IMG/VR virus record: IMGVR_UViG_3300020074_000097
Coordinates: 1 to 27,829 of that record
DNA from: a virus
Length of the DNA stretch: 27,829 nt
Strand: one strand, 5' to 3'
Shown in pieces: positions 2,189 through 26,643 of the stretch. The stretch's first letter is position 1; each line of letters opens with the position of its first letter. Position numbers and translations under genes: made by a program. Under the pieces are notes generated by a model, which was not told the origin of the DNA, did not search any database, and saw only the letters and a program-made list of their open reading frames with translations.

Positions 2189-3094
2189 TAGTAAGAAGTA
2201 CGTTTCACCATTAATGACAACAGGTAATTTATGAGTAAAGGTCGTTGCTAAAATTGATCCTGCAGAAGTTGCAGTGAGTCCTTCTATTATAATATTATTA
2301 GCAAAATTAATTTCTCCTATTGATACCAAACTACTTGATGTGCTCAAAGCAGATCCAACTTGAGTCCATGGATTATTATCACTTGAGAAAGCTCTTGTTG
2401 TTCCTATAAAAATTCCTGGAGATTTTGAACTTGACAATCCTGTATCATTAGTATTTAATTTTGCTGGATCATTGATTATAAGAGTCCCTTCTATTTTTAT
2501 ATCGTTAGTTGTTGAAGTATCTTTAGTTGTTTTATACTTTCTTGTAATTTCAAATCTTGCACTTTCATTTGCGTCTAAAGTAGAAGTAAAAATATCATTT
2601 ACATTACTCCCACCAAAATAATTAAAATTGACTGTATCACTTATTTCTGGTTGGACAAAATTAAGAATATTTTCTTGATATACTGGATCTTTACGAATAA
2701 AAAGAAAATTTGCAGGAGATGCAGTTGTTACTACAATTGTATTAATTCCTATAGAGCTTGGTGTTGATGATAACTTAAATTTAGTTTCTGCATCAGAACT
2801 GCATACAAAATAATCTGTATTGACAAATAATGTAACTCCAGATCCAACTGTAATATTTGTGCTTACTCCAACTATATCGTCGTTAGTAAAAATAGATTCA
2901 TTTGTATCCCCAAAGAAAAAGAATCCATCATTTACGGAACTAAACGATACGGTAGATATGTTTCTAAGATTATTTTGTATAATTCTTAAGTCACCGGCGA
3001 TTCCAACTCCCGCTAAATTATTAATAGCGAGAGCATCATCAGTTGTTTCTTCAAAATTTAAATCTTTTCGGAATCCTTGATTTTGTCTTACCAT
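2177..3094 (-). CDS. Uncharacterised structural protein, 305 aa
   Basis: I do not recognise a family. The 305 residues are rich in Ser, Thr, Asn and Ile and look beta-structured, like neighbouring virion proteins. The N-terminus (NFEETTDDALAINNL at residues 13-27, then GDLRIIQNNL) resembles the N-terminal motif of the leucine-rich-repeat gene just upstream and of the PA14 gene, which suggests a shared attachment module. It starts one base after the stop of the leucine-rich-repeat gene (TAA A ATG), so it is probably co-transcribed and translationally coupled. It is the last gene of the leftward block; its 3' end overlaps the convergent PA14 gene by 12 bases. A tail-fibre or fibre-accessory role is inferred from position only. 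Confidence 0.6.
   Translation of the reverse strand: MVRQNQGFRKDLNFEETTDDALAINNLAGVGIAGDLRIIQNNLRNISTVSFSSVNDGFFFFGDTNESIFTNDDIVGVSTNITVGSGVTLFVNTDYFVCSSDAETKFKLSSTPSSIGINTIVVTTASPANFLFIRKDPVYQENILNFVQPEISDTVNFNYFGGSNVNDIFTSTLDANESARFEITRKYKTTKDTSTTNDIKIEGTLIINDPAKLNTNDTGLSSSKSPGIFIGTTRAFSSDNNPWTQVGSALSTSSSLVSIGEINFANNIIIEGLTATSAGSILATTFTHKLPVVINGETYFLLLRT
2182..2197. terminator. Weak hairpin at convergent gene ends
   Basis: TTCTTA-ATAG-TAAGAA is a perfect 6-bp inverted repeat with a 4-base loop, placed across the overlapping 3' ends of the two convergent genes. It could act as a bidirectional terminator, but it is AT-rich, short and lacks a clean U-tract, so this is a positional guess. Confidence 0.25.
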
Positions 3095-3095
3095 T

Positions 3096-5501
3096 TTATT
3101 CGTAGACTATTGTCCAACCTTTTGATTTTAAAAATAAAACTTTATCCAAAGCGTCTCCACTCGGAAGAGCATTAAAACGAAGATTTACTGTTACACCACC
3201 CCTGTTCACCGCAGTGTAATTTGAAAATAAATCATTGATAAGTGAATTCACCGCTTGTTGTGATAATTGATTTGAAGATAAATCAAGATATCGCAATTTA
3301 TAATTTGTAGTAAGTGATCCTGACGTATAATTAGTAAATTGATTATTATACAAAATCAGGTAGTATAAACTTGGGCATTCAGAAAAACTTGGAATAGTGC
3401 CTGATAGTAAATTATTATTTGCGTAAAAATAAGTTAAATTAGGAAGATTTTGAAATTTACTTAATGAAGTAAACTGATTATTATACAAATAAAGATATAC
3501 TAAGTTTGAAAGATTTTTAAAAGAAGGTATAGATCCACTAAATGAATTATAAGTTAAATCTACATAGTAAATATTTGGATTACTAGCAAAAGATGGAATG
3601 AGCCCAGTAAAATTATTGTAATGTAATACTAAGTAAGTTAAAGAAGGGCAAGTTAATAATGATGGTAAGGAGCCTGTCGTTCTTCCATAGGAAATGTACC
3701 ATAAGTAGTATAAATTTGGAGTAAAAGTAAAAGCATTTGGATGAATTGGGGTTGTAAGTAAATTACCAGATTGTAATAACATGTATTGAAGATTTTTACA
3801 AACTTCAAATGTTTTTTCTGGTATTACAAAAGAAGTGTCTCCGTTTGGATTACCACCTGTTAATGATGTATACCTAAGTTCAAGATAACTTAATGCTGGA
3901 TTAGTAAACTTTGGCATAGCTCCAGTCAATGGAGATGCATAAAAATACAAAGTACTCAATGATATACAATTATCAAATTTATAAGTCCCAGAACTATTAA
4001 AAATACTACCAATATTTCTGCAATAATGCCCATAAAAAGTTGTTAAGGATGTTTTATTATTTAAATCTGGACAAGGTAGTCCAGTGCTATGAATATCAAT
4101 ATATTGTATTTTATTATTTGCAGCAGATATTGAAAAAGTTGCATCAGTTAAGTAGTAATTTCCACTAAGTTGTAATGATATTAAATTTGTTAATTGTTTT
4201 ACATTTAAAAAACTTCCACTAGAAGAGCCAATAGATCTAAAATCATTATTATAAATGTAATATGTTTCACATGAATTTGTGACATTTGGAATGTATGCAT
4301 TAGGATCATCAGAATCTGGATGAAAATAAGCTCCTCCGCCTCGGTTTAAGTTTAGAGTAACTAGATTTGAAAATTTATTTGCAATTAAATTAATTGGAAT
4401 ACTACCATAAAACGTTCCACCGATTGTCAAATTTTTTAAATTACTTGGTATTTTATTAACTACATTTAAATTTAATTTTCTTTCTGATTCAGTTTCACTC
4501 AAATAAAGGGGATTTTGAACAAAATATAATTCTTGTAAATTGGGAGAAAATGTAGTTAAATTAGGTAAATTTCTTATGTTGTTGTAAGAAAAATTTAAAA
4601 TCTCTAAGTAAGAAAGTTTCGTCACAGGAAAATCAGTTATTCCTGCAGAGTTAATTGTTATTGTTTTTATGTAGTCTGGACTATAATAAAGTTGAATATA
4701 TCTTTCTCTAGAAGATGTAGATTTGAAATTAATTGTGGATGAAGTTGATCCTACATTTGTAAACTTTGAAAAATTATTTGAATTTGCAACTTCTACAATT
4801 TTCCAACTTGCAGCAGTATTGTTTAGTAATGAAGTAAGAGTGACAGTTGCAGTCAAATTTTTAAAAAATCCTGTAAAAATTAAAGGAATTCCTTTCATTG
4901 CATACAATACAACTGTTTGGCCGCCAATTGTACATGTTATCCTATCAGTCGGAAATTCTGAATCAAACTCTTTTGCTTGTGGTGTAATTGTTGTTTGTAA
5001 TCTCTTTTGTGATGCATTTGCAGCAGTACCAAACTGTAAAGATCCTCCCGATATGATTGATACTCTAGCTCCATAAGAAATTGGAACTGTAGCTCCTGTG
5101 CCTACAGAACTCCAAGCACTCACTCTTGATGTTGAAATATCAGCAATTTTAACTGTTGATGTGACAAAATCCACATAACGAAATCTAATTGCAGATCCAC
5201 TTAAAGATCCGTTTATTGTTAGATTTCCAAATAAAGATCCAAGAATAGAAGCCCGTGTGCTTAAAACACTAGTATATTTTGCTGCATCGGTGTAATATCT
5301 ATCTAATGTTTTATAAAGTGGTTGTCTTAGTCTGGAGAGACTAATCCAATCTCCTAGTGTGGCACTCGCAGCCGATCCTCTTATAACATCTAGATCTAAG
5401 GGCGGTAAATTTATTGCGTTTAATGCCTTTTTTTTATTTTCTACATCAGCGAAAGAACTTAAGACATTCAACCCAAATAATTTTGGATTTGATAAAGCCA
5501 T
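3096..5501 (-). CDS. Leucine-rich-repeat virion protein, putative receptor-binding
   Basis: An 801-residue protein whose C-terminal 500 or so residues (from about 290) are leucine-rich repeats. Units such as LSNLVYLYLYNNQFTSL and PNLTYFYANNNLLSGTIPSF follow LxxLxLxxNxLxG.IPxF, the form with an IP step best known from plant-type repeats. The end (VNLRFNALPSG, then LKSKGWTIVYE) resembles a common bacterial or phage repeat cap. Residues 1-80 form a non-repeat head with SFADVEN...ALNAI...DLDVIRG, shared in outline with the PA14 protein; residues 80-285 are beta-rich. Many repeat positions carry Tyr where Leu is usual. A NATAAATA late-promoter match lies 28 bases before the ATG. Leucine-rich repeats are protein- or glycan-binding scaffolds, so a host-recognition role is inferred. 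Confidence 0.8.
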   Translation of the reverse strand: MALSNPKLFGLNVLSSFADVENKKKALNAINLPPLDLDVIRGSAASATLGDWISLSRLRQPLYKTLDRYYTDAAKYTSVLSTRASILGSLFGNLTINGSLSGSAIRFRYVDFVTSTVKIADISTSRVSAWSSVGTGATVPISYGARVSIISGGSLQFGTAANASQKRLQTTITPQAKEFDSEFPTDRITCTIGGQTVVLYAMKGIPLIFTGFFKNLTATVTLTSLLNNTAASWKIVEVANSNNFSKFTNVGSTSSTINFKSTSSRERYIQLYYSPDYIKTITINSAGITDFPVTKLSYLEILNFSYNNIRNLPNLTTFSPNLQELYFVQNPLYLSETESERKLNLNVVNKIPSNLKNLTIGGTFYGSIPINLIANKFSNLVTLNLNRGGGAYFHPDSDDPNAYIPNVTNSCETYYIYNNDFRSIGSSSGSFLNVKQLTNLISLQLSGNYYLTDATFSISAANNKIQYIDIHSTGLPCPDLNNKTSLTTFYGHYCRNIGSIFNSSGTYKFDNCISLSTLYFYASPLTGAMPKFTNPALSYLELRYTSLTGGNPNGDTSFVIPEKTFEVCKNLQYMLLQSGNLLTTPIHPNAFTFTPNLYYLWYISYGRTTGSLPSLLTCPSLTYLVLHYNNFTGLIPSFASNPNIYYVDLTYNSFSGSIPSFKNLSNLVYLYLYNNQFTSLSKFQNLPNLTYFYANNNLLSGTIPSFSECPSLYYLILYNNQFTNYTSGSLTTNYKLRYLDLSSNQLSQQAVNSLINDLFSNYTAVNRGGVTVNLRFNALPSGDALDKVLFLKSKGWTIVYE

Positions 5502-17651: not shown

Positions 17652-20429
17652 TCAATAGTAGTAGCCTCCACCACTAGGCGGGGATGGTGGCGGCGGTGGC
17701 GGTGGCGGAGGCGGTGGCGGTGGTGGCGGCGGAGGTGGAGGTGAAGGAGCCGGTGAAGGAGATGGAGATGGAGTTGGAGATGGTGAAGGGGATGGAGTTG
17801 GAGATGGAGTTGGAGATGGTGAAGGAGATGGAGATGGAGATGGTGAAGAGGATGAGGTGGGAGTTGATGTTGATGATGTCGGGGTTGGTGTTACTGATGA
17901 TCCACTACTTCCAGAAGATCCACTAGAAGATCCACTATTTCCAGACGATCCACTAGAAGATCCACTACTTCCAGACGATCCACTATTTCCATAAACTATA
18001 TCAGATAAAGGAAATGGAGATTGATTAAGTATTTGAACTGTTTTAGATGGTTCACCAGGACAATCAACAACATTTATAATACTCGTTAATTCAGACACCT
18101 GTATTACCGGTGCAGTAATATATTGTGGTACGTACTGAACAATAGGATATAACAAGGCGCCCTGGCCAGTGTTCGTAGTTATTTCTAAATCTGGAATATC
18201 TGGGAATTGATTTTTGCACGAATTAGGAGAGTTAACTCCAATAATGTTTCCAAATTCTGTTAAAATAGGACTATATGAGCAACTGCCCCAACTAATTTTA
18301 TCACCACTGGTGTATCCAGTTCCAGGTTTTATTACAACAATATCTGTTACTATTCCAACAGGATTGGTAGAGATACCTCCTCCACCGCCAGTGGTTCCGA
18401 TTCCAGTGCCACTAGTGGTTCCGATTCCAGTGCCACCACCGGTAGTTCCGATTCCAACATCAGGGGGTGTTATTCCTGGATTTAAATCAGTAGGACAATA
18501 TCCAGATCCTTTCTCTTCAATGTAAATAGATTTAATAGATCCTTTATCATCTATTTGTGATTTAGCTATAGCTCCTTTTCCAAAATTACTTGCATCAACA
18601 ATATCAATCTTTGGTTCTTTTGTATAACCTTTTCCAATATCTAAAACCTGAATTGTTAATACTGATCCGTCTGAGGGATTTATTACTGCTTTTGCTTTGG
18701 CTCCAATTCCGTCCCCACTAATTACAATTTCTGGAGGTATACATTTATACCACTTTGTTCCTGGGGGTACGGCACCCCATATGTCGTCTTGTGTTTTAGG
18801 ATTTACAATTGTCTGACGACAGTCTTTAAATATAGTTTCTTGTCCTCCATACATGGATAATAATCCTGACCATTGATCTATAGATTCACCAGCACCTCCC
18901 AATAAATCAAAATTATTTAATGTCTGAGCCCATTTATCTGAAGATGGCAGTTTTACACCATTAAATGGATCCCAAAAAGGTTTTCCTTTACACTCTAGAC
19001 CATCACACTGTAAAAACCCTAATAGTTGATTCAACATGCTGAAAGCACCAGTGATATAACCAGTAATTTGGGATATTCCTCCAGTTAACCAATCAATTCC
19101 AGATAAAACAGAATCTAAAGCCTCAGTCAAAAAATCTGCAGTTTTTCCAATTAAAGTTGCAAGGGTTTCTTCAGCTGCACAGACTGGAATGTTTGGTGAT
19201 TTTCCAATCAATCCCTCTAGAAGAGACATCATGAAATCTAGTAATGGCCCAAAAAGTTTTTCAAAAACACAAAAAATAATGTTCATTATCTGTTTTGCAG
19301 CTTCAGATAATTGTAACCATAGAGGTTCTGGAATTGTAACTGCAAAAATTTTAAATAAACATCCTATGAGTTTGGTAATGTTATCTCTTATACCATTTAT
19401 AATGAATTTAAAAATAGAAATTAATAAACGAGCAACTCTTTGAATATTAGTTTTTACATTTACAACTACATTTCGTATTGGATCAATAAATCCAAATGCT
19501 GTTTTTTGTAGTTTGTTTATAAATGCAATAAAGCTTTGTAAAGTTGCTTGCATATCTGCAAGAAAGTTATTTTCACACCCATTATCACCAGAATATGGAC
19601 CAGCTTCATCTGTGGAAAATACTGATAAAAACGCATTGACTGCTTGAGTATCTGCAAAAAGTTTATCGTAAGCTAAATCTGGCTTTGCAAAAGAAGATCC
19701 TGCAACAGATGCATCAGGAAGTCCACTTAAAGGATTAACATATCCACTTGGTAAAGCAGAATAAAAAGACGAACCAGGGTCAGAAATACCGAGATTTGAG
19801 TTTGAATTAAGAACATAATTTGATCCAGGACTTAAATTGATACTATCCGATACACCAAAAAGAGGTTTTGAATTTTCTTGGATAGACATTGCTGGCTTAT
19901 CAGAACCTTCATTAGTAACTTCTGGTGGTTTTTGCACTTCACCCGGCTTCTGTGATTTAATTCTTGTTGGAGTGGCAGATAAACTTCCCTGCATCCCAGT
20001 AAAGGGTTTGAATTGGGAACTCTTTTCTTTCGCAACTAAATCAGGAGTAATATCGTTTTTTACAGATACATTTCTATAAAAACACGAAACTACAACGGGT
20101 TGTTGAGCTTCATCTCCATCCATGAAAAATCCCAGAACAGATTCTCCACCAACAAGATTTGGAGTTTTTCCAAATCCACCTTGTCCTGGGGCTCCGTCTG
20201 CAGCAGAGGTTAAAATGTGAGCCCAAGGAAGATCCTCATCTGGCAAAACATTACCATTAAACGTGTGATATCCGATAATTCTTACTTTGCATCTATATGC
20301 CCAACTACCTTCAAGATCTAATTTTGATTTATCATTTCTCCATACTTTAGGATCAGCTACTTGACCAACCCACCATACGAAACCATCTTTTCCTGCAAAA
20401 CTAGATTTTAGTAAAGATTCGTCTATCAT
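17652..20429 (-). CDS. 5: Baseplate hub protein, gp5-like OB fold, no lysozyme domain
   Basis: 925 residues. Residues 15-120 match the gp5/VgrG OB domain: FVWWVGQVADP, RCKVRIIGYHTFNG, EDLPWAHILTSA, then VLGFFMDGDEAQQPVVVSCF. In T4 this domain is followed by a lysozyme and a beta-helix. Here residues 285-460 are strongly hydrophobic helices (for example VARLLISIFKFIINGI and IIFCVFEKLFGPLLDFMMSL), which may interact with membrane. Residues 565-720 hold GxGY repeats (DIGKGYTKEP, EKGSGYCP, KPGTGYTSGD) and a GIGTTGGG run. The last ~110 residues are GSS repeats, then (S/T)P repeats, 19 consecutive Pro and GGGYYY. The ATG overlaps the preceding stop by one base (TGATG). It should bind the gp27-like protein. 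OB assignment is confident; the roles of the helical and Pro-rich parts are unknown. Confidence 0.85.
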   Translation of the reverse strand: MIDESLLKSSFAGKDGFVWWVGQVADPKVWRNDKSKLDLEGSWAYRCKVRIIGYHTFNGNVLPDEDLPWAHILTSAADGAPGQGGFGKTPNLVGGESVLGFFMDGDEAQQPVVVSCFYRNVSVKNDITPDLVAKEKSSQFKPFTGMQGSLSATPTRIKSQKPGEVQKPPEVTNEGSDKPAMSIQENSKPLFGVSDSINLSPGSNYVLNSNSNLGISDPGSSFYSALPSGYVNPLSGLPDASVAGSSFAKPDLAYDKLFADTQAVNAFLSVFSTDEAGPYSGDNGCENNFLADMQATLQSFIAFINKLQKTAFGFIDPIRNVVVNVKTNIQRVARLLISIFKFIINGIRDNITKLIGCLFKIFAVTIPEPLWLQLSEAAKQIMNIIFCVFEKLFGPLLDFMMSLLEGLIGKSPNIPVCAAEETLATLIGKTADFLTEALDSVLSGIDWLTGGISQITGYITGAFSMLNQLLGFLQCDGLECKGKPFWDPFNGVKLPSSDKWAQTLNNFDLLGGAGESIDQWSGLLSMYGGQETIFKDCRQTIVNPKTQDDIWGAVPPGTKWYKCIPPEIVISGDGIGAKAKAVINPSDGSVLTIQVLDIGKGYTKEPKIDIVDASNFGKGAIAKSQIDDKGSIKSIYIEEKGSGYCPTDLNPGITPPDVGIGTTGGGTGIGTTSGTGIGTTGGGGGISTNPVGIVTDIVVIKPGTGYTSGDKISWGSCSYSPILTEFGNIIGVNSPNSCKNQFPDIPDLEITTNTGQGALLYPIVQYVPQYITAPVIQVSELTSIINVVDCPGEPSKTVQILNQSPFPLSDIVYGNSGSSGSSGSSSGSSGNSGSSSGSSGSSGSSVTPTPTSSTSTPTSSSSPSPSPSPSPSPTPSPTPSPSPSPTPSPSPSPAPSPPPPPPPPPPPPPPPPPPPSPPSGGGYYY
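17673..17990. repeat. Low-complexity repeats encoding GSS, SP and poly-Pro tail
   Basis: A tract inside the 3' end of the gp5-like gene. On the + strand it reads GGTGGCGGC-type repeats (poly-Pro codons), then GGAGATGGA-type repeats (Ser-Pro), then nine-base units such as GATCCACTA (Gly-Ser-Ser). The GC-rich part stands out sharply from the AT-rich surroundings and is likely to vary in length by slippage. Confidence 0.85.
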
Positions 20430-20650: not shown

Positions 20651-21931
20651 TTAGTATAGTCCGTAAGAATCTCTAACGAGTTTTAGTGATGTGATCATAT
20701 TATTACCTTCAAAGTGGTGTCTCAATTCTTTAATTAAATATTTTCCACTTTGTTGTTCATCAACTGTATTACCAGAATTTTGAGTAGCAGGATCAACTTT
20801 TGGAAATTGTGCTTCTAAAACTGTGCCTGCTTTTAAATTGATGTTACATGGTACTATCATATTTAGTGACTGAGTGAATAGCAAGTTATATCTACCAAAA
20901 GATTTTGCCATGTCTGCATTATCTCTTCCAGAAGTTCCTTTAATATCATTTGGATCTAGTGTTCCAGTATCTGACATTCTAAAAAGAACTCTAGTGGGAG
21001 ATTTATCAAACCCAGATGGAACTGATATTTTATCCTCAGCTCCTAACTTTGTTTTAAGTTCATCCGTCAATTTATAATCAAAAACATCCAATTTATTTGT
21101 ATAAAGATCATAAAAATATGTTACGTTTGCATACATTCCTACTCTTAACGACTTCAATAAATCAATATTTTTTTCTATATTATAATTTAAAATTGAAAAA
21201 TTAGTTCCAGGACTATTATGTTGTATTGCATTATTATAACTGTAAATCGGAATACCTTTATCTTTTTGTAAGGTAGCACTCACCATTTTATCAATGCTTT
21301 TAAAATTAAATCCATCTTTAGTTTCATAAAAAAGAAACCCAGCGACTCCCTTTGCAACTGTACCGTTTGTTCCTGAATTGCTATTGGATGGGATACCTTT
21401 TGGACCTAACCATGTTAATGTATGAAAAGGTTTTTTATTATTTCCAATAAAACTATATGAATTTGAGGTTTTTTCTATATTTGAATCTTTATATTTTTTA
21501 GTTTGTAAAGTATCTTTCAATATTTCTTTAACATGCACATCTATAGTCTGTTTTTGATATTTTTTTTGAACTCTTGCGGTTTCATTAGTCAATCCTTCTC
21601 TAGAAGTTAGATGTAAATTAAAAGCTTCTTTTGTACCATCAGAAGCGTATCCACTCACTTTGTAAACATACATTCCATAATCACCATCCAATAAGAAATC
21701 TCCAGTTGGAGTTGTAACATCTACGACAACTTTTTCTCCACCACGAATTGGTAATCCATTATATAAATTTCCAGAACCCACTATAGCGATTGACATTGTT
21801 ACGCAAGGAGATAAAATATCTTCAAAGTAATCCATTGATAAAATATTATTAGTAATATCAACTTTCTTCTTTCCATTTAAAGAAAAAAGTTCAACTGCAT
21901 TAAATTTTAGACTTTGTACTACTGCTGACAT
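20651..21931 (-). CDS. 27: Baseplate central hub, gp27-like
   Basis: 426 residues, close to the 391 of T4 gp27. The start (VELFSLNGKKKVDITNNILS, then MDYFEDILSPCVTMSIAIVG) and the end (GKYLIKELRHHFEGNNMITS, then LKLVRDSYG) match the general form of gp27/gpD-type hub proteins: an N-terminal tube-like barrel and a C-terminal barrel with the 'Y.I....H' strand. In T4, three copies form the cup that joins the tail tube to the gp5 spike. Here it stands directly before the small acidic gene and the gp5-like gene, the expected partners. Three bases separate it from the preceding stop. No unusual truncation or insertion is evident apart from a Gly/Ser/Asn loop at about residues 178-192. Confidence 0.8.
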   Translation of the reverse strand: MSAVVQSLKFNAVELFSLNGKKKVDITNNILSMDYFEDILSPCVTMSIAIVGSGNLYNGLPIRGGEKVVVDVTTPTGDFLLDGDYGMYVYKVSGYASDGTKEAFNLHLTSREGLTNETARVQKKYQKQTIDVHVKEILKDTLQTKKYKDSNIEKTSNSYSFIGNNKKPFHTLTWLGPKGIPSNSNSGTNGTVAKGVAGFLFYETKDGFNFKSIDKMVSATLQKDKGIPIYSYNNAIQHNSPGTNFSILNYNIEKNIDLLKSLRVGMYANVTYFYDLYTNKLDVFDYKLTDELKTKLGAEDKISVPSGFDKSPTRVLFRMSDTGTLDPNDIKGTSGRDNADMAKSFGRYNLLFTQSLNMIVPCNINLKAGTVLEAQFPKVDPATQNSGNTVDEQQSGKYLIKELRHHFEGNNMITSLKLVRDSYGLY

Positions 21932-21934
21932 GGA

Positions 21935-23971
21935 TTATGAAGAAGATAACTGAGTTAATAATATAGTTTTGAATAAGCTATTTAATACCTGAGTTTCGGA
22001 TGGACCTGGCATTAAAACTGTTTGTTGACCAGAACTGGGTGTGGAAATAATTCTAGGAGTTTGTTTTCCACTACCTTGAACGACTGGAAGAACTACAGTC
22101 CTGTTTGTTTGTAAGTTATATGCAGGATATTGTTGCATTTGTTGCATTTGTTGAGAATTTGCCGTTTGTTGTGGCATTGATTGGACTTGCGTTGAGGGTG
22201 CAACTGAAGAAACTCTTCCCATACCTTGTGCAAATTGTAATATAGCTGCAGTTCCTGCTCCAGTTACTCTTTGACCGACAACATCTTTCATAGATCCACC
22301 TGCGATTCTAACTGCATTACTATCACCAAGGATTTGTGCGCCTGAATATTTCTTTTTGATTCTATCTGCTTCACTCATTTCTAAATGTAATGGATCATCT
22401 GTCCTATATTTTCCTTTCTCTACAGTTGCACCCATAGAAGCGGCGGCTTCTTGAACTGCTTTAGATGCGTCTGCAAATTTGCCACTTTCATTCGGAGGAA
22501 CTACGACAACATTGTATCCCTTTTGTTGTAATTCTTTAATAGACTTCATTACATTTGCTTTTGCAGTTTGAGGACTACCATAGTCATTTGTTCCCGCGGC
22601 TAAAACTACAGTTGGTTTGCCTGTTTGGCCCATCACTCCGCTTTGAGAGGAAACTCTTGATCTTTCAGATTGTTCTTTTGCTTTTTCTGCAGTCAATGCA
22701 GCTCCAATTTTTTGTCCAAGACCAGCAGAACTTGGATTTATTGGTTGACCTCCTCTATATACCTCAAAATGTAAGTGAGTATTTCGTCCATCAGGATATA
22801 GATTAGCAATTTTTTGACCACCGTATACAGTATCTCCAACTTTAACTGAAGGTGTAGTATGATAGTATCTAGTTTTAAATCCTCCGCCATGATCAATAGT
22901 AACAAAACCATTGTAACCATTATGAACAGCTTCTGTAACTTTTCCTGTTTTATGAGCCGCTACTACTGCGTTTAGTGCTCCAGTATGGTGAGTCATATCA
23001 AGACCAGCATGTTTTCTTTTTCCACCATCTCTTGGAGCACCAAACTGTTGATTTGCCGCTTCTCCTGCTTTTCCTCCAGGTAAAGGAAAAAAAGTATCTC
23101 CACTAATTGGGCCTTCGTACCCTTCACCAGCTGGAGTTTCTTTTATCGGAGGATATTGTGTAGGCTCATTATATGGATTTTCGCCCTGTCCAACATCTTG
23201 TCTACCAGAACCATAACTAGATCCAAAATTGGATTGTTCAAATTTTGCAACCACATTTTCAAATTTATTTAAAGTTGATGGCCAAGTGTTTTGTGGATTT
23301 GACCTTGCTAATGCAGCTTGTTTTTGTTCCCTTTCTTCTTGTTTAAGTTTTGACTGACCTACAATTTTTTCTCCTGTTTCATATGCACGATCTCCAAGAA
23401 ATCCTCCCGCAAGGCCGCCGGCCATACTTCCAAGGACAAAACCTAATCCAGGGATAGGAATTAATGCTTGTCCAATTGCACCACCAATTAAACTTCCAGC
23501 AAGGTTACCACCAGCACCTGCAGCTGCTTTACCAACTCCTTCTCCTTCAGCAAGTCCTGTAGCAAAGTCTAATCCAGCAAAAACAGCATTAGCAATTCCT
23601 AATGCTCTCAACCCACCAAATCTAACATTCTGTCCTTTTGTTATAGGCATACCTGCTTTTGATTTTGGTGAGGGTTTTTTTCCACCAAAGAAATTACCAA
23701 TAATAGAAGCAGCATCTAACGCACCGCTTGTCAACCCACTCAACAAGTTTCCAGATCTCCCAAAAGTATTAATGGGATTAAGGCCTTGTATTTTTCTAAT
23801 TTTCTTTTGATCAAACTTGATTGATTTTAATGTTTGTGTCTCAGTTGCCATAGATGACAAAAATTGAGAAAAAGATGCCTGAGTATTCTGCATCACTCCT
23901 GTGGAGCGATTAATCCTAACAATATTATTAGCCGCTCTTGCTAATGGGAATACGCTATCTTGAATTGCCAT
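21935..23971 (-). CDS. Tail protein: Gly-zipper, M23 peptidase, permuted SGNH-like domain
   Basis: 678 residues. Residues 145-195 are a Gly-zipper hydrophobic stretch (GNLAGSLIGGAIGQALIPIP, then GFVLGSMAGGLAGGFLG) able to insert in membranes. Residues 305-415 are an M23 (LytM-like) peptidase with all expected residues: H321 and D325 (HAGLD), H371 (YYH), H399 and H401 (HLHFE). Residues 450-585 carry SGNH-hydrolase motifs in unusual order: GTND (460-463), DPLH (526-529), GDSN (549-552), then a block-II-like TGAGTAAIL. A Gln-rich segment and a hydrophobic C-terminus follow. M23 enzymes cut peptidoglycan cross-links, so it likely opens the wall during injection. Membrane segment and location near the tape measure suggest it sits in the tail lumen or tip. 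The start overlaps the previous stop (TAATG). Confidence 0.8.
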   Translation of the reverse strand: MAIQDSVFPLARAANNIVRINRSTGVMQNTQASFSQFLSSMATETQTLKSIKFDQKKIRKIQGLNPINTFGRSGNLLSGLTSGALDAASIIGNFFGGKKPSPKSKAGMPITKGQNVRFGGLRALGIANAVFAGLDFATGLAEGEGVGKAAAGAGGNLAGSLIGGAIGQALIPIPGLGFVLGSMAGGLAGGFLGDRAYETGEKIVGQSKLKQEEREQKQAALARSNPQNTWPSTLNKFENVVAKFEQSNFGSSYGSGRQDVGQGENPYNEPTQYPPIKETPAGEGYEGPISGDTFFPLPGGKAGEAANQQFGAPRDGGKRKHAGLDMTHHTGALNAVVAAHKTGKVTEAVHNGYNGFVTIDHGGGFKTRYYHTTPSVKVGDTVYGGQKIANLYPDGRNTHLHFEVYRGGQPINPSSAGLGQKIGAALTAEKAKEQSERSRVSSQSGVMGQTGKPTVVLAAGTNDYGSPQTAKANVMKSIKELQQKGYNVVVVPPNESGKFADASKAVQEAAASMGATVEKGKYRTDDPLHLEMSEADRIKKKYSGAQILGDSNAVRIAGGSMKDVVGQRVTGAGTAAILQFAQGMGRVSSVAPSTQVQSMPQQTANSQQMQQMQQYPAYNLQTNRTVVLPVVQGSGKQTPRIISTPSSGQQTVLMPGPSETQVLNSLFKTILLTQLSSS

Positions 23972-25737
23972 TATCCGTCAACGATATTGTATACTATTCT
24001 TGAGTATAATGTAAGGAAATTGTCTTCATTTGTAGAAGTTATGAATTGAACTGTTCCACCCTGAATTGACCCCGAATCTAAAGTTTGAGTGCCACCTTGA
24101 TTCATAGGTTGAGACATATTCACCGGATCTAACATTTGAACAGAGTTATTTTGAATTGTAGTAGGTGGTTGGGAAACTGTTTGTGCAAGTTGTTGTGTGT
24201 TTGTTGCAGTTGCAGAAGCTGGTGCAACTGCAGATGGTTTTGGTGGTTGAGCTGTTGCAATTGGTGTATTTCCACCTCCTCTGATAGCCTTTAATTCTGC
24301 GATAGCCGTTGCATATGTTTTATGTGCTTTATTCCTATTTTTATATTGATCTTGATAAGTTAAATCTGCAGTGCCGCCTAGTTTTGCAGCATTTATGGTT
24401 CCTTGTGGCAATCCTCTCCATGTGGGGGCAAGTTTCTGTAAAAATTGTTCTTCTGTTATTTGTCCTCCCAAAAACTTATCTAATGAATGTGATTTTCTGA
24501 GTTCGTTTAAAGTTATAGCATCTTGAACTTCTGGTGTAAATTTTGTATTTGCATTAAATCCAGCCCTTTCCGCTCTTTCTAAAAGATATTGAGGCATTTG
24601 TTGATATCTTCCAATTGCCCCTTTAGCATTTTTGGCTAAGTATCCAATAGTTTGTTCTGTAGCTTTTCCTTTAGTTTTTCCAGCACTCTGATTAAAACTA
24701 TCATAACCTTCCGGACCTTGCTCTACAGAAGCAATAAGATCTAAAACTCCTTTTTCTCCAGTTGTAGTAACTCCAGAAGCACCTGTAGCACCTGTAGCAC
24801 CTGTAGCACCTGTAGCACCAGCAGATCCTTGAGAACCTGTAGCACCTGACGATCTAGATGTAGATTCACTAGTAGAAGATGAAGATTGTTGTCTTCCTGT
24901 AGTTAAAGTTTCTATTGCACGTTCAAATTTAGAGAGAATGGCATTAAATCTATCCAAATATGAACCAGTTAATCCCCCAGCATCTTGCGTTGGTTCAGCT
25001 TCTACAGCACCAGGACCGGCTAATGCACTCGTGACCATTGCAGTCCCAGCACCCAATGCACCTGCTCCAGCTAACATCATGCCTGGTCTGCGTCTCATCA
25101 TTCTCATGAGACCCGAAGGCGCACTTCTCTTCAATCCTCCACCAGGTACATCAACATCAATATTAAGACCAGGGCCCCCTCCAGCAGATGCAGTGGGCAG
25201 ATTGGATAATTGGTCTACAATTCTTACAATTTGTCTTCTGATAATCTGTGCGACTTTAAAAGTTTCGTTAAAAACTTCTTGCAATGCCTTGAGATTTTCT
25301 CCTAATCTTGAAACATTTTTTCTATCTGCAAAAAACTGTAGATAACCTATAGCTTTATTGTATAAACTTAAGAATGAATTTAGAAGTCTATTTGGAAGAG
25401 ATGCATCTATATTTGCAATTTTAGCCCTATAGTTAGAAGACAAATCTGCAATTCTATCATTTACAATTTGATTAACTGTTTGATTTATAGTTTGTACTTT
25501 ACTTTCTATATTGTTTAGGATATTACTTGATAATGTCTTGATAATAGATCCCAAATCTGGAGGTCTTGGTGCTACTGCAGACGCTCCACGTTGAAATCCT
25601 ACAATTTTATTAGCTGCTGCACTTAAAACAGAAGATCCCAGAGGAGCTCCACCAGAGATAAAATTCTGTGCCTTTTCTGGTGTGACTCTAGACTCTGGAG
25701 CAATAACTCCTGGATTAAGTGGGGAACTAATTGCCAC
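23971..25737 (-). CDS. Putative tape-measure protein (gp29-like position) with muramidase domain
   Basis: I choose the GTG at 25737 (VAISSPLNPGVIAPES, 588 residues): AGGCGG lies 6 bases before it. The frame extends to a TTG at 25776 within the previous gene, without a good site. Residues 65-185 are long helices (ESKVQTINQTVNQIVNDRIA, then RLGENLKALQEVFNETF). An Arg cluster precedes a hydrophobic stretch at about 217-245. A collagen-like GAT repeat (about 298-322) links to a lambda-lysozyme-like muramidase at about 327-485 (LDLIASVEQGPEGYDSFN with likely catalytic Glu near 339, GAIGRYQQMP, FTPEVQDAITLNEL). Length is close to T4 gp29 (590), and it follows the gp26/gp51-like pair, where a tape measure is expected. 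The neighbour at 21935-23971 could instead share or hold that role. Confidence 0.65.
   Translation of the reverse strand: MAISSPLNPGVIAPESRVTPEKAQNFISGGAPLGSSVLSAAANKIVGFQRGASAVAPRPPDLGSIIKTLSSNILNNIESKVQTINQTVNQIVNDRIADLSSNYRAKIANIDASLPNRLLNSFLSLYNKAIGYLQFFADRKNVSRLGENLKALQEVFNETFKVAQIIRRQIVRIVDQLSNLPTASAGGGPGLNIDVDVPGGGLKRSAPSGLMRMMRRRPGMMLAGAGALGAGTAMVTSALAGPGAVEAEPTQDAGGLTGSYLDRFNAILSKFERAIETLTTGRQQSSSSTSESTSRSSGATGSQGSAGATGATGATGATGASGVTTTGEKGVLDLIASVEQGPEGYDSFNQSAGKTKGKATEQTIGYLAKNAKGAIGRYQQMPQYLLERAERAGFNANTKFTPEVQDAITLNELRKSHSLDKFLGGQITEEQFLQKLAPTWRGLPQGTINAAKLGGTADLTYQDQYKNRNKAHKTYATAIAELKAIRGGGNTPIATAQPPKPSAVAPASATATNTQQLAQTVSQPPTTIQNNSVQMLDPVNMSQPMNQGGTQTLDSGSIQGGTVQFITSTNEDNFLTLYSRIVYNIVDG
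24781..24816. repeat. Nine-base tandem repeat, collagen-like linker
   Basis: Four perfect copies of ACCTGTAGC (+ strand) encode the GAT triplets of the linker between the helical part and the muramidase of the putative tape-measure protein. Imperfect copies follow. Gain or loss of one unit keeps the frame and changes linker length by three residues. Confidence 0.85.
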
Positions 25738-25912
25738 GATTTGCCGCCTGTTGTGTCTTTGAATTTTCTTCCTCAATATGTTGTTTCAATAGGGCAAGAT
25801 AAATATCTCTCTCCCAAGGCATCAGGTTTTCAATCTCAGTCAAAGAGTATTTATGGAACTGCATGAGAGCGAAGTTAATCCGATAATATGACTCAAGATC
25901 AATATGAGCCAT
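25727..25912 (-). CDS. Small gp51-like tail-assembly partner, probable -1 frameshift extension
   Basis: 61 residues if started at the ATG at 25912: INFALMQFHKYSLTEIENLM then PWERDIYLALLKQHIEEENS. The 'F.Y....I..L.PWE...Y...L' pattern is typical of the short helical domains of tail-assembly chaperones, which often include a DUF-type 'MPWWER' motif. It lies in the -1 frame of the gp26-like gene, two bases after its stop, and has no ribosome binding site at usual distance; GGAGGG is 24 bases away. I therefore think it is mainly made as a C-terminal extension of the gp26-like protein (305 residues in all). It overlaps the next gene's GTG start. Calling it gp51-like rests on gene order (T4 26-51); sequence identity to T4 gp51 (249 residues) was not tested. 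Confidence 0.7.
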   Translation of the reverse strand: MAHIDLESYYRINFALMQFHKYSLTEIENLMPWERDIYLALLKQHIEEENSKTQQAANRGN

Positions 25913-25942
25913 AATTAACCGAAAAAACTTGTTAGACCCTCC
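25887..25942 (-). promoter_or_regulatory. Candidate programmed -1 ribosomal frameshift signal
   Basis: Reading the minus strand: GGAGGG (25942-25937), nine bases, slippery T TTT TTC (25927-25921) in the correct phase of the gp26-like frame (AGT TTT TTC GGT TAA), seven bases, then a 9-bp hairpin with one G-U pair and a 9-base loop (25913-25905 with 25895-25887). A -1 slip reads CGG TTA ATT ATG GCT and enters the small downstream frame. Layout equals the SD-slippery-hairpin arrangement of E. coli dnaX. Confidence 0.7.
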
Positions 25943-26643
25943 AGAACTACTTTATTTTCTACTTTAGTTTTTGGATTGATAACAGTGAATGTATGAGAAA
26001 GTTTTGGCATAGTTGCAAAAAATTCTTCAATTTTTTTGAATTGTGAAGAGTTCATACTTTCAATAAAGTCAATTAATTCTGCTTTTGTGCAGTCAGAAGC
26101 GGCCCAGGTTTCCTCCCTAGTAAATACAGCTTCAATACATGCAGTAATAACATCAAAAGATTTATCAATTGTTGATACAGATTCTTGTGCAGTGAAATCA
26201 AAATTATTTTTAATAAACTGTTCTAATGATGGATACTTCATTTTAATAACGATATCGTCATCAATTTTAATTTCTCTATCATGAGTTGGATCTTTTTCAA
26301 TTTTAACTTCATCAACAAATACTTTTACCGGCACTTCAGTAACTCCATCATCAGAACAAGTCACGACTAAATCAATTGATTCCCCAACAGATTTACCACG
26401 AACATTCAAAAAAATGAATTCAATATCAAACGAAGGGAGATCTTCTACTTTAATTCCTTTTGTCAAGATACACTCTTTTAATACAGACTTAATAGCCAGA
26501 GTGATTTCTTTAACATTTTGACTTTCTAATGCAAGAATTAAAACTTTTTCTTCTTTAACTAAAAATGGTCTATATTTTATTAGTTTTCCTGTGGACGGCA
26601 ACTCAAGTTCATAAGTTGGCGTAGCAATCTTTGGTAATGGCAT
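25915..26643 (-). CDS. 26: Baseplate hub assembly protein, gp26-like
   Basis: 242 residues (T4 gp26 is 208). The start (MPLPKIATPTYELELPSTGK then KYRPFLVKEEKVLILALES) and the conserved helix-rich end (CTKAELIDFIESMNSSQFKK) fit the T4-like gp26 baseplate family. Family members act in hub and tail assembly together with gp51, and by position resemble the tail-assembly chaperones that hold the tape-measure protein. The last codons (TTT TTC GGT TAA) contain a slippery heptamer that can move ribosomes into the next frame. Upstream, a TCTAAATA late-promoter-like site lies 23 bases before the ATG; I see no strong ribosome binding site. It follows the gp48/54-like gene. Confidence 0.75.
   Translation of the reverse strand: MPLPKIATPTYELELPSTGKLIKYRPFLVKEEKVLILALESQNVKEITLAIKSVLKECILTKGIKVEDLPSFDIEFIFLNVRGKSVGESIDLVVTCSDDGVTEVPVKVFVDEVKIEKDPTHDREIKIDDDIVIKMKYPSLEQFIKNNFDFTAQESVSTIDKSFDVITACIEAVFTREETWAASDCTKAELIDFIESMNSSQFKKIEEFFATMPKLSHTFTVINPKTKVENKVVLEGLTSFFG

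Follow-up and report, generated by a model that had tools for sequence, protein, structure and literature searches.

A circularly permuted SGNH-like domain, probably a virion acyl-esterase, carried as a mobile module in phage tail proteins

In ordinary SGNH enzymes the sequence blocks follow one another in the order I-II-III-V (S-G-N-H). Rearranged forms exist in bacteria: AlgX, AlgJ, WssI and BcPatB1 are circularly permuted SGNH-like proteins with the order H-S-G-N or variants of it, as described in the parts consulted of PMC9487903, PMC4148444 and PMC10302187. Two other systems come close to the one analysed here, namely OatA, which acetylates peptidoglycan (PMC5697884, part of the paper), and Gp44, the tail lysin of phage phi11, which joins an endopeptidase to an SGNH hydrolase (PMC5380687, likewise in part). 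The protein that we compare with them, P0001, has 678 amino acids and is encoded by the ORF at 21935-23971 (minus strand) of IMGVR_UViG_3300020074_000097, a virus record of 27,829 bases that was analysed as a whole and is called the window below. Its features and those of its neighbours are these:

25915..26643, minus strand: T4 gp26-like baseplate protein (Pfam T4_baseplate, 1.6e-67; phrog_150)
23971..25776, minus strand: neighbouring gene A, 601 aa, with a central lysozyme-like variable segment (sequence pattern)
21935..23971, minus strand: P0001, 678-aa tail-region protein with M23 and permuted SGNH-like domains (ORF, Pfam)
23117..23971, minus strand: P0001 N-terminal region, aa 1-285, glycine/alanine-rich, which defines the orthologue family (sequence, alignment, orthologue search)
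22733..23014, minus strand: P0001 M23 peptidase domain, aa 320-413, HAGLD ... HLHFE (Pfam PF01551, E 1.2e-17)
22211..22621, minus strand: circularly permuted SGNH-like domain spanning aa 451-587, with the blocks in the order III-V-I-II (profiles, model, conservation)
22583..22594, minus strand: block III, GTND, aa 460-463, Asn462 being the oxyanion-hole residue by homology (motif, conservation)
22385..22396, minus strand: block V, DPLH, aa 526-529, with Asp526 and His529 (motif, conservation, hhalign)
22316..22327, minus strand: block I, GDSN, aa 549-552, Ser551 being the nucleophile by homology (motif, profiles, conservation)
22247..22261, minus strand: block II-like GAGTA, aa 571-575, with Gly571 (GAG 571-573; motif, conservation)
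21938..22186, minus strand: P0001 C-terminal tail, aa 596-678, ending QVLNSLFKTxLLTxLSxx (orthologue comparison)
20651..21931, minus strand: tail protein phrog_350, adjoining the hub gene (phrog match)
17652..20429, minus strand: gp5-like baseplate hub / tail lysozyme family protein (phrog_1922, 1e-97)

With the gp26-like gene and gene A on one side and the phrog_350 and gp5-like genes on the other, P0001 belongs to a tail region of T4-like character. A long low-complexity tail, rich in Ser and Pro and containing proline runs, closes the gp5-like protein, and 3096-5501 (minus strand) encodes an 801-aa protein of the phage tail region with a leucine-rich-repeat-like pattern by eye. Among the relatives of gene A (the upstream genes of L078-L157) the ends are conserved and the central segment varies, being judged by eye as lysozyme-like (GRYQ/GAYQ), GH24-like (L106), SleB-like or of other types. 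Gene A thus resembles a second slot for exchangeable wall hydrolases; a PDB search with its segment gave no match, and by a crude motif test a lysozyme-type gene A neighbour accompanied 9 of 16 P0001 relatives with the SGNH-like domain vs 15 of 46 without it, no clear excess.

The original prediction read P0001 as an M23 peptidase fused to SGNH-hydrolase motifs, and the fusion was borne out. Peptidase_M23 scores 64.4 bits against a Pfam cut-off of 28.7, HAGLD supplying the HxxxD motif and HLH the HxH motif; the same scan of P0001 gave a GDSL match that was sub-threshold only, and no AT3 family, the N-terminal membrane domain of SGNH-AT3. The SGNH motifs lie at the predicted positions and in the predicted order III-V-I-II (N-H-S-G), with GTND at 460, DPLH at 526, GDSN at 549 and GAG at 571. 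Since this is not the ordinary block order, we class the domain as a permuted SGNH relative and not as an ordinary member.

Four comparisons bear on the permutation: (i) A native-order profile of 14 rows matched OatA (5ufy) at E 3e-5, but only in the half that holds block III; once its halves had been exchanged at GDS, it matched at 4.6e-8 from GDS to the block III helix, covering blocks I-III, so that the halves-swapped search proposed with the prediction came out in its favour. One swapped single sequence gave 0.0011. (ii) A doubled profile, chosen to make the result independent of the cut point, matched OatA at 7.5e-9 and 5ug1 at 3.7e-8, the alignments running from GDS in copy one through the artificial junction to GTND in copy two. 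The next matches, 6wn9 (0.076) and 6vjp (0.2), both labelled acetyltransferase, were weak. (iii) When single domains were doubled and compared with Pfam, Lipase_GDSL_2 was found in 8 of 10, the best stretch spanning the junction in 8/8; because doubling inflates the scores, many unrelated weak matches being raised as well, position alone was used. (iv) A comparison by hhalign with 26 bacterial GDSL domains of ordinary order, drawn from 32 loci retrieved with PF13472, places GTND on GxND and DPLH on DGxH, with a probability of 91.5 for the swapped and 82.5 for the native profile, block I lying outside the main alignment. By sequence, the domain at residues 451-587 is a circular permutation of SGNH with the cut placed between blocks II and III; its fold is a prediction. 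Among the 54 complete orthologues of P0001 no non-permuted one was found.

The predicted fold was compared with known structures. AlphaFold, given the window domain and nine relatives in native order, returned a single compact alpha/beta domain (pLDDT 94.4, pTM 0.90) in which a strand at 96-99 runs into GDSN and a helix begins at Ser; the model of L047, a different carrier, reached pLDDT 93.8 and pTM 0.89. Sequential searches with Foldseek and VIA recovered mainly generic Rossmann-type proteins, with Z of at most 7.3 for the window and 7.7 for L047. The flavodoxin-like strand order is 2-1-3-4-5, and an SGNH fold read from strand 3 becomes 3-2-1-4-5, so that Rossmann-type matches are expected. 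For the window model no SGNH-titled protein appeared among the 50 VIA matches listed or in Foldseek, a title-based result that excludes nothing. Among the 50 matches listed for the L047 model, E. coli thioesterase I (TesA) occurs four times (5tic, 1j00, 6lfb, 6lfc), together with a yeast isoamyl acetate-hydrolysing esterase (3mil) and a carbohydrate acetylesterase (4tx1). These SGNH-type matches are partial and of middling score (Z 5.8-6.7): residues 1-98 of the model lie on 61-178 of thioesterase I, its C-terminal two thirds, and on 78-207 of 4tx1, and the 3mil match reaches model residue 128, on 71-222. The block order of TesA is ordinary, and its Z is only 5.9-6.7. This fit and the alignment of OatA across the doubled-profile junction both uphold the circular permutation first proposed from the motifs. 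In the viral library, the ACG-2014d protein ranked first (9e-8).

Relatives of the domain were found in scans of viral contigs (viral_contigs; up to 61 loci per scan), and by tblastn in the cyanophages S-SSM4, S-SSM6b and ACG-2014d. The first scan of genome contigs (genome_contigs) gave no cellular relative and the second gave L077 alone, a 24-residue match of 15 bits with the domain profile; a plasmid search for the domain gave no match. With E values up to 1 allowed, a profile built from ten members found matches in 77 of the 78 sources. After a domain E cut of 1e-10, and without the re-fetched copies L004 and L005, 73 sources with 53 distinct sequences remained, and exclusion of five truncated copies (L010, L024, L025, L026, L045) left 48 distinct complete ones; L009, truncated and marginally above the E cut, was left out. 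All 48 are colinear with the window domain. The motif order was taken from their alignment, regex spacings being unreliable: the short GDS-GTN spacings in L037, L039, L040, L056, L057 and L021-L023 come from other GDS/GDQ/GDK strings. A regex over the 70 aa upstream revealed no GDS by which the usual order could be regained; the GDS that L022 and L023 have 5 aa upstream is a linker match.

Gly460, Gly549 and Asp550 are invariant in the 48 homologues. The catalytic residues named in the original prediction are present, and the proposed conservation check supports them: Ser551 is kept in 42/48, Asn462 in 39/48 and His529 in 38/48, and the three occur jointly in 38/48, every His-bearing member having Asn and Ser too. 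This conservation excludes a chance origin of the motifs. Asp526, named there too, and the block II glycine are present in the window but only partly held in the family: Gly571, whose position was assigned by alignment, is kept in 28/48, and of the 38 members with His, 22 have Asp three residues before it and the remaining 16 have PYAH, AYTH or similar, so the triad is not universal. His is missing from 10 of the 48 and Ser from six, all six of cyanophage type. In the cyanophage members L002, L003, L021-L023 and L030, Ser, Asn and His are lost and GDK or GDQ stands in place of GDS; they are natural pseudo-enzymes, and RefSeq annotates those of L002 and L003 as 'endolysin'. L058 lacks His alone. 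Three short proteins (L059, L071, L075) retain GDSN and have lost Asn and His, so that GDSN is possibly retained there for another reason. These three, with L060 and L061, are proteins of about 350-510 aa with an N-terminal copy of the domain that has GDSNAVRI and lacks Asn and His; other domains were not recognised in L059 and L071.

The domain is a mobile module found in tail and ejection proteins of various phages. An orthologue search with the N-terminal region of P0001, taking the best 80 of 143 relatives, gave 62 distinct sequences, 54 of them complete; within this set the domain is optional, present in 14 and absent from 40 of the complete orthologues, and the C-terminal tail (aa 596-678) is kept with and without it. 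Sorted by hand, the carriers fall into about 11 types, and the tree requires 10 changes of carrier type, the minimum for 11 labels, its deep support being weak. In 47 carriers (the count excludes L021) Pfam recognises M23 in 19, Phage_lysozyme2 in two, Amidase_5 in two and Phage_lysozyme in one; several further carriers are lysozyme-like, judged by eye only. The closest neighbour of the window domain along the tree is that of L006 (0.42), followed by L031 and L032 (0.48), which suggests transfer of the domain between tail types but does not prove its direction. The L006 protein, 1645 aa long, matches a tape-measure family weakly (phrog_339) and includes a segment of lambda-lysozyme type; its domain is 76% identical to that of the window, and outside the domain the two proteins gave no match at E 1e-3. 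Other settings include a gp5-like protein (L063, 3563-4996), in which it is inserted with a Gp5_OB match on one side and Phage_lysozyme2 on the other, an Amidase_5-type hydrolase (L008, with L013 similar), and the carrier type of L015 and L050, which in L050 adjoins a DNA-ejection protein gene. Between the DNA-ejection and SGNH-bearing genes of L050 lies a phosphoadenosine phosphosulfate reductase-like gene (2869-3558). PDB searches with the L015 and L011 segments gave no match.

We think it probable that the domain is a permuted SGNH acyl-hydrolase, a mobile tail module cutting acyl esters of the host envelope, the peptidoglycan O-acetyl being the likeliest of them. Ser551, His529 (with Asp526) and Asn462 would form a single active site of the kind that ordinary SGNH enzymes have, and the domain would cleave acyl esters on the host envelope at entry. 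The likeliest substrate would be the O-acetyl groups on peptidoglycan sugars, which we infer from OatA, the nearest relative, and from the company of wall hydrolases; their removal could allow the wall to be opened by the M23 peptidase of the same protein and by lysozyme-like enzymes next to it. Some cyanophage copies, having lost the catalytic residues, would bind at most. A virion acyl-esterase is the most likely identity, with the counterpoints that OatA normally works as a transferase and that a number of family members are degenerate. A wider proposal is one that we put forward only tentatively, its chances being somewhat below even: that these domains form a phage-specific SGNH class with a new N-H-S-G permutation, an interchangeable cartridge of contractile-tail, tape-measure, gp5 and ejection proteins which de-acetylates peptidoglycan for the virion lysins.

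The alternative that survives best, although we find it rather unlikely, keeps the permuted SGNH fold and gives it another ester (lipid acyl, LPS or capsule acetyl) or acyl transfer in place of hydrolysis. Lipases, thioesterases and transferases all occur among the SGNH enzymes, the L047 model matches thioesterase I and an acetylesterase, and OatA is an acetyltransferase; against this, many carriers are not tail fibres or spikes but peptidoglycan-hydrolase proteins, and in one case gp5 holds a copy next to its lysozyme. It is less probable still, and we would be surprised to find, that the module is non-catalytic, its fold binding wall glycan or packing in the tail and its motifs being a relic or structural: the six cyanophage-type members without Ser, Asn and His would fit such a role, as would GDSN without Asn and His in L059, L071 and L075, but all three residues persist in 38/48, across most carrier types. 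That an unrelated Rossmann-like domain resembles SGNH by chance is very improbable, since its one support, the Rossmann-type top sequential matches, is expected under both views, whereas the OatA match at 7.5e-9 requires the rotation, and GTND and DPLH fall in register with ordinary GDSL enzymes and are jointly conserved.

If the permuted acyl-hydrolase is active, phages would carry within the tail an answer to acylated envelopes, perhaps to O-acetylated peptidoglycan, and the family would be a natural test of circular permutation on an enzyme fold, in which members that look active can be set beside members that look inactive. Of the 47 carriers, 15 have a Lipase_GDSL_2 match that attains E 0.01; the Pfam SGNH models thus mostly miss the domain, leaving phage virion enzymes annotated as 'endolysin' or 'hypothetical'.

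Searches of the open-licence literature turned up neither a phage protein called a permuted SGNH enzyme nor the N-H-S-G order, and the parts consulted of PMC5408684, PMC3779223 and PMC12419801 contain nothing on permuted SGNH. The known systems differ from the window domain as follows: (i) The C-terminal domain of OatA (SGNH-AT3; 5UFY, 5UG1) is its top sequence relative in the PDB, and the GDS and G-N motifs align, but OatA has the order S-G-N-H and is a bacterial membrane acetyltransferase with no phage tail context. (ii) AlgX, AlgJ, WssI and BcPatB1 are likewise permuted and SGNH-like, but, as portrayed in the parts of the reports consulted, they are bacterial polysaccharide acetyltransferases with the order H-S-G-N (or H-S-G-Y, H-S-G-D), in which the cut falls between blocks III and V, and with a non-GDS block I in AlgX, AlgJ and BcPatB1. 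The window domain shares neither the order of the AlgX/DHHW family nor its motifs (non-GDS block I, the block III Tyr of AlgX, DxH or DHHW), having N-H-S-G with GDSN, GTND and DPLH. (iii) The cyanophage 'endolysin' proteins (phrog_1200; S-SSM4 CYXG_00219, ACG-2014d gp010) have the same domain in the same gene position, but with Ser, Asn and His replaced and with M23 not found by Pfam. (iv) Gp44 of the staphylococcal phage phi11, according to the part of PMC5380687 consulted, is likewise a virion lysin with an endopeptidase and an SGNH domain. An SGNH domain in a tail protein is therefore less unusual than first supposed, while the permutation and its spread are unusual as predicted. Permuted SGNH proteins and a tail lysin combining SGNH with an endopeptidase were both known before; what sets this domain apart, its mechanism being in part a proposal, is the N-H-S-G cut and its wide spread.
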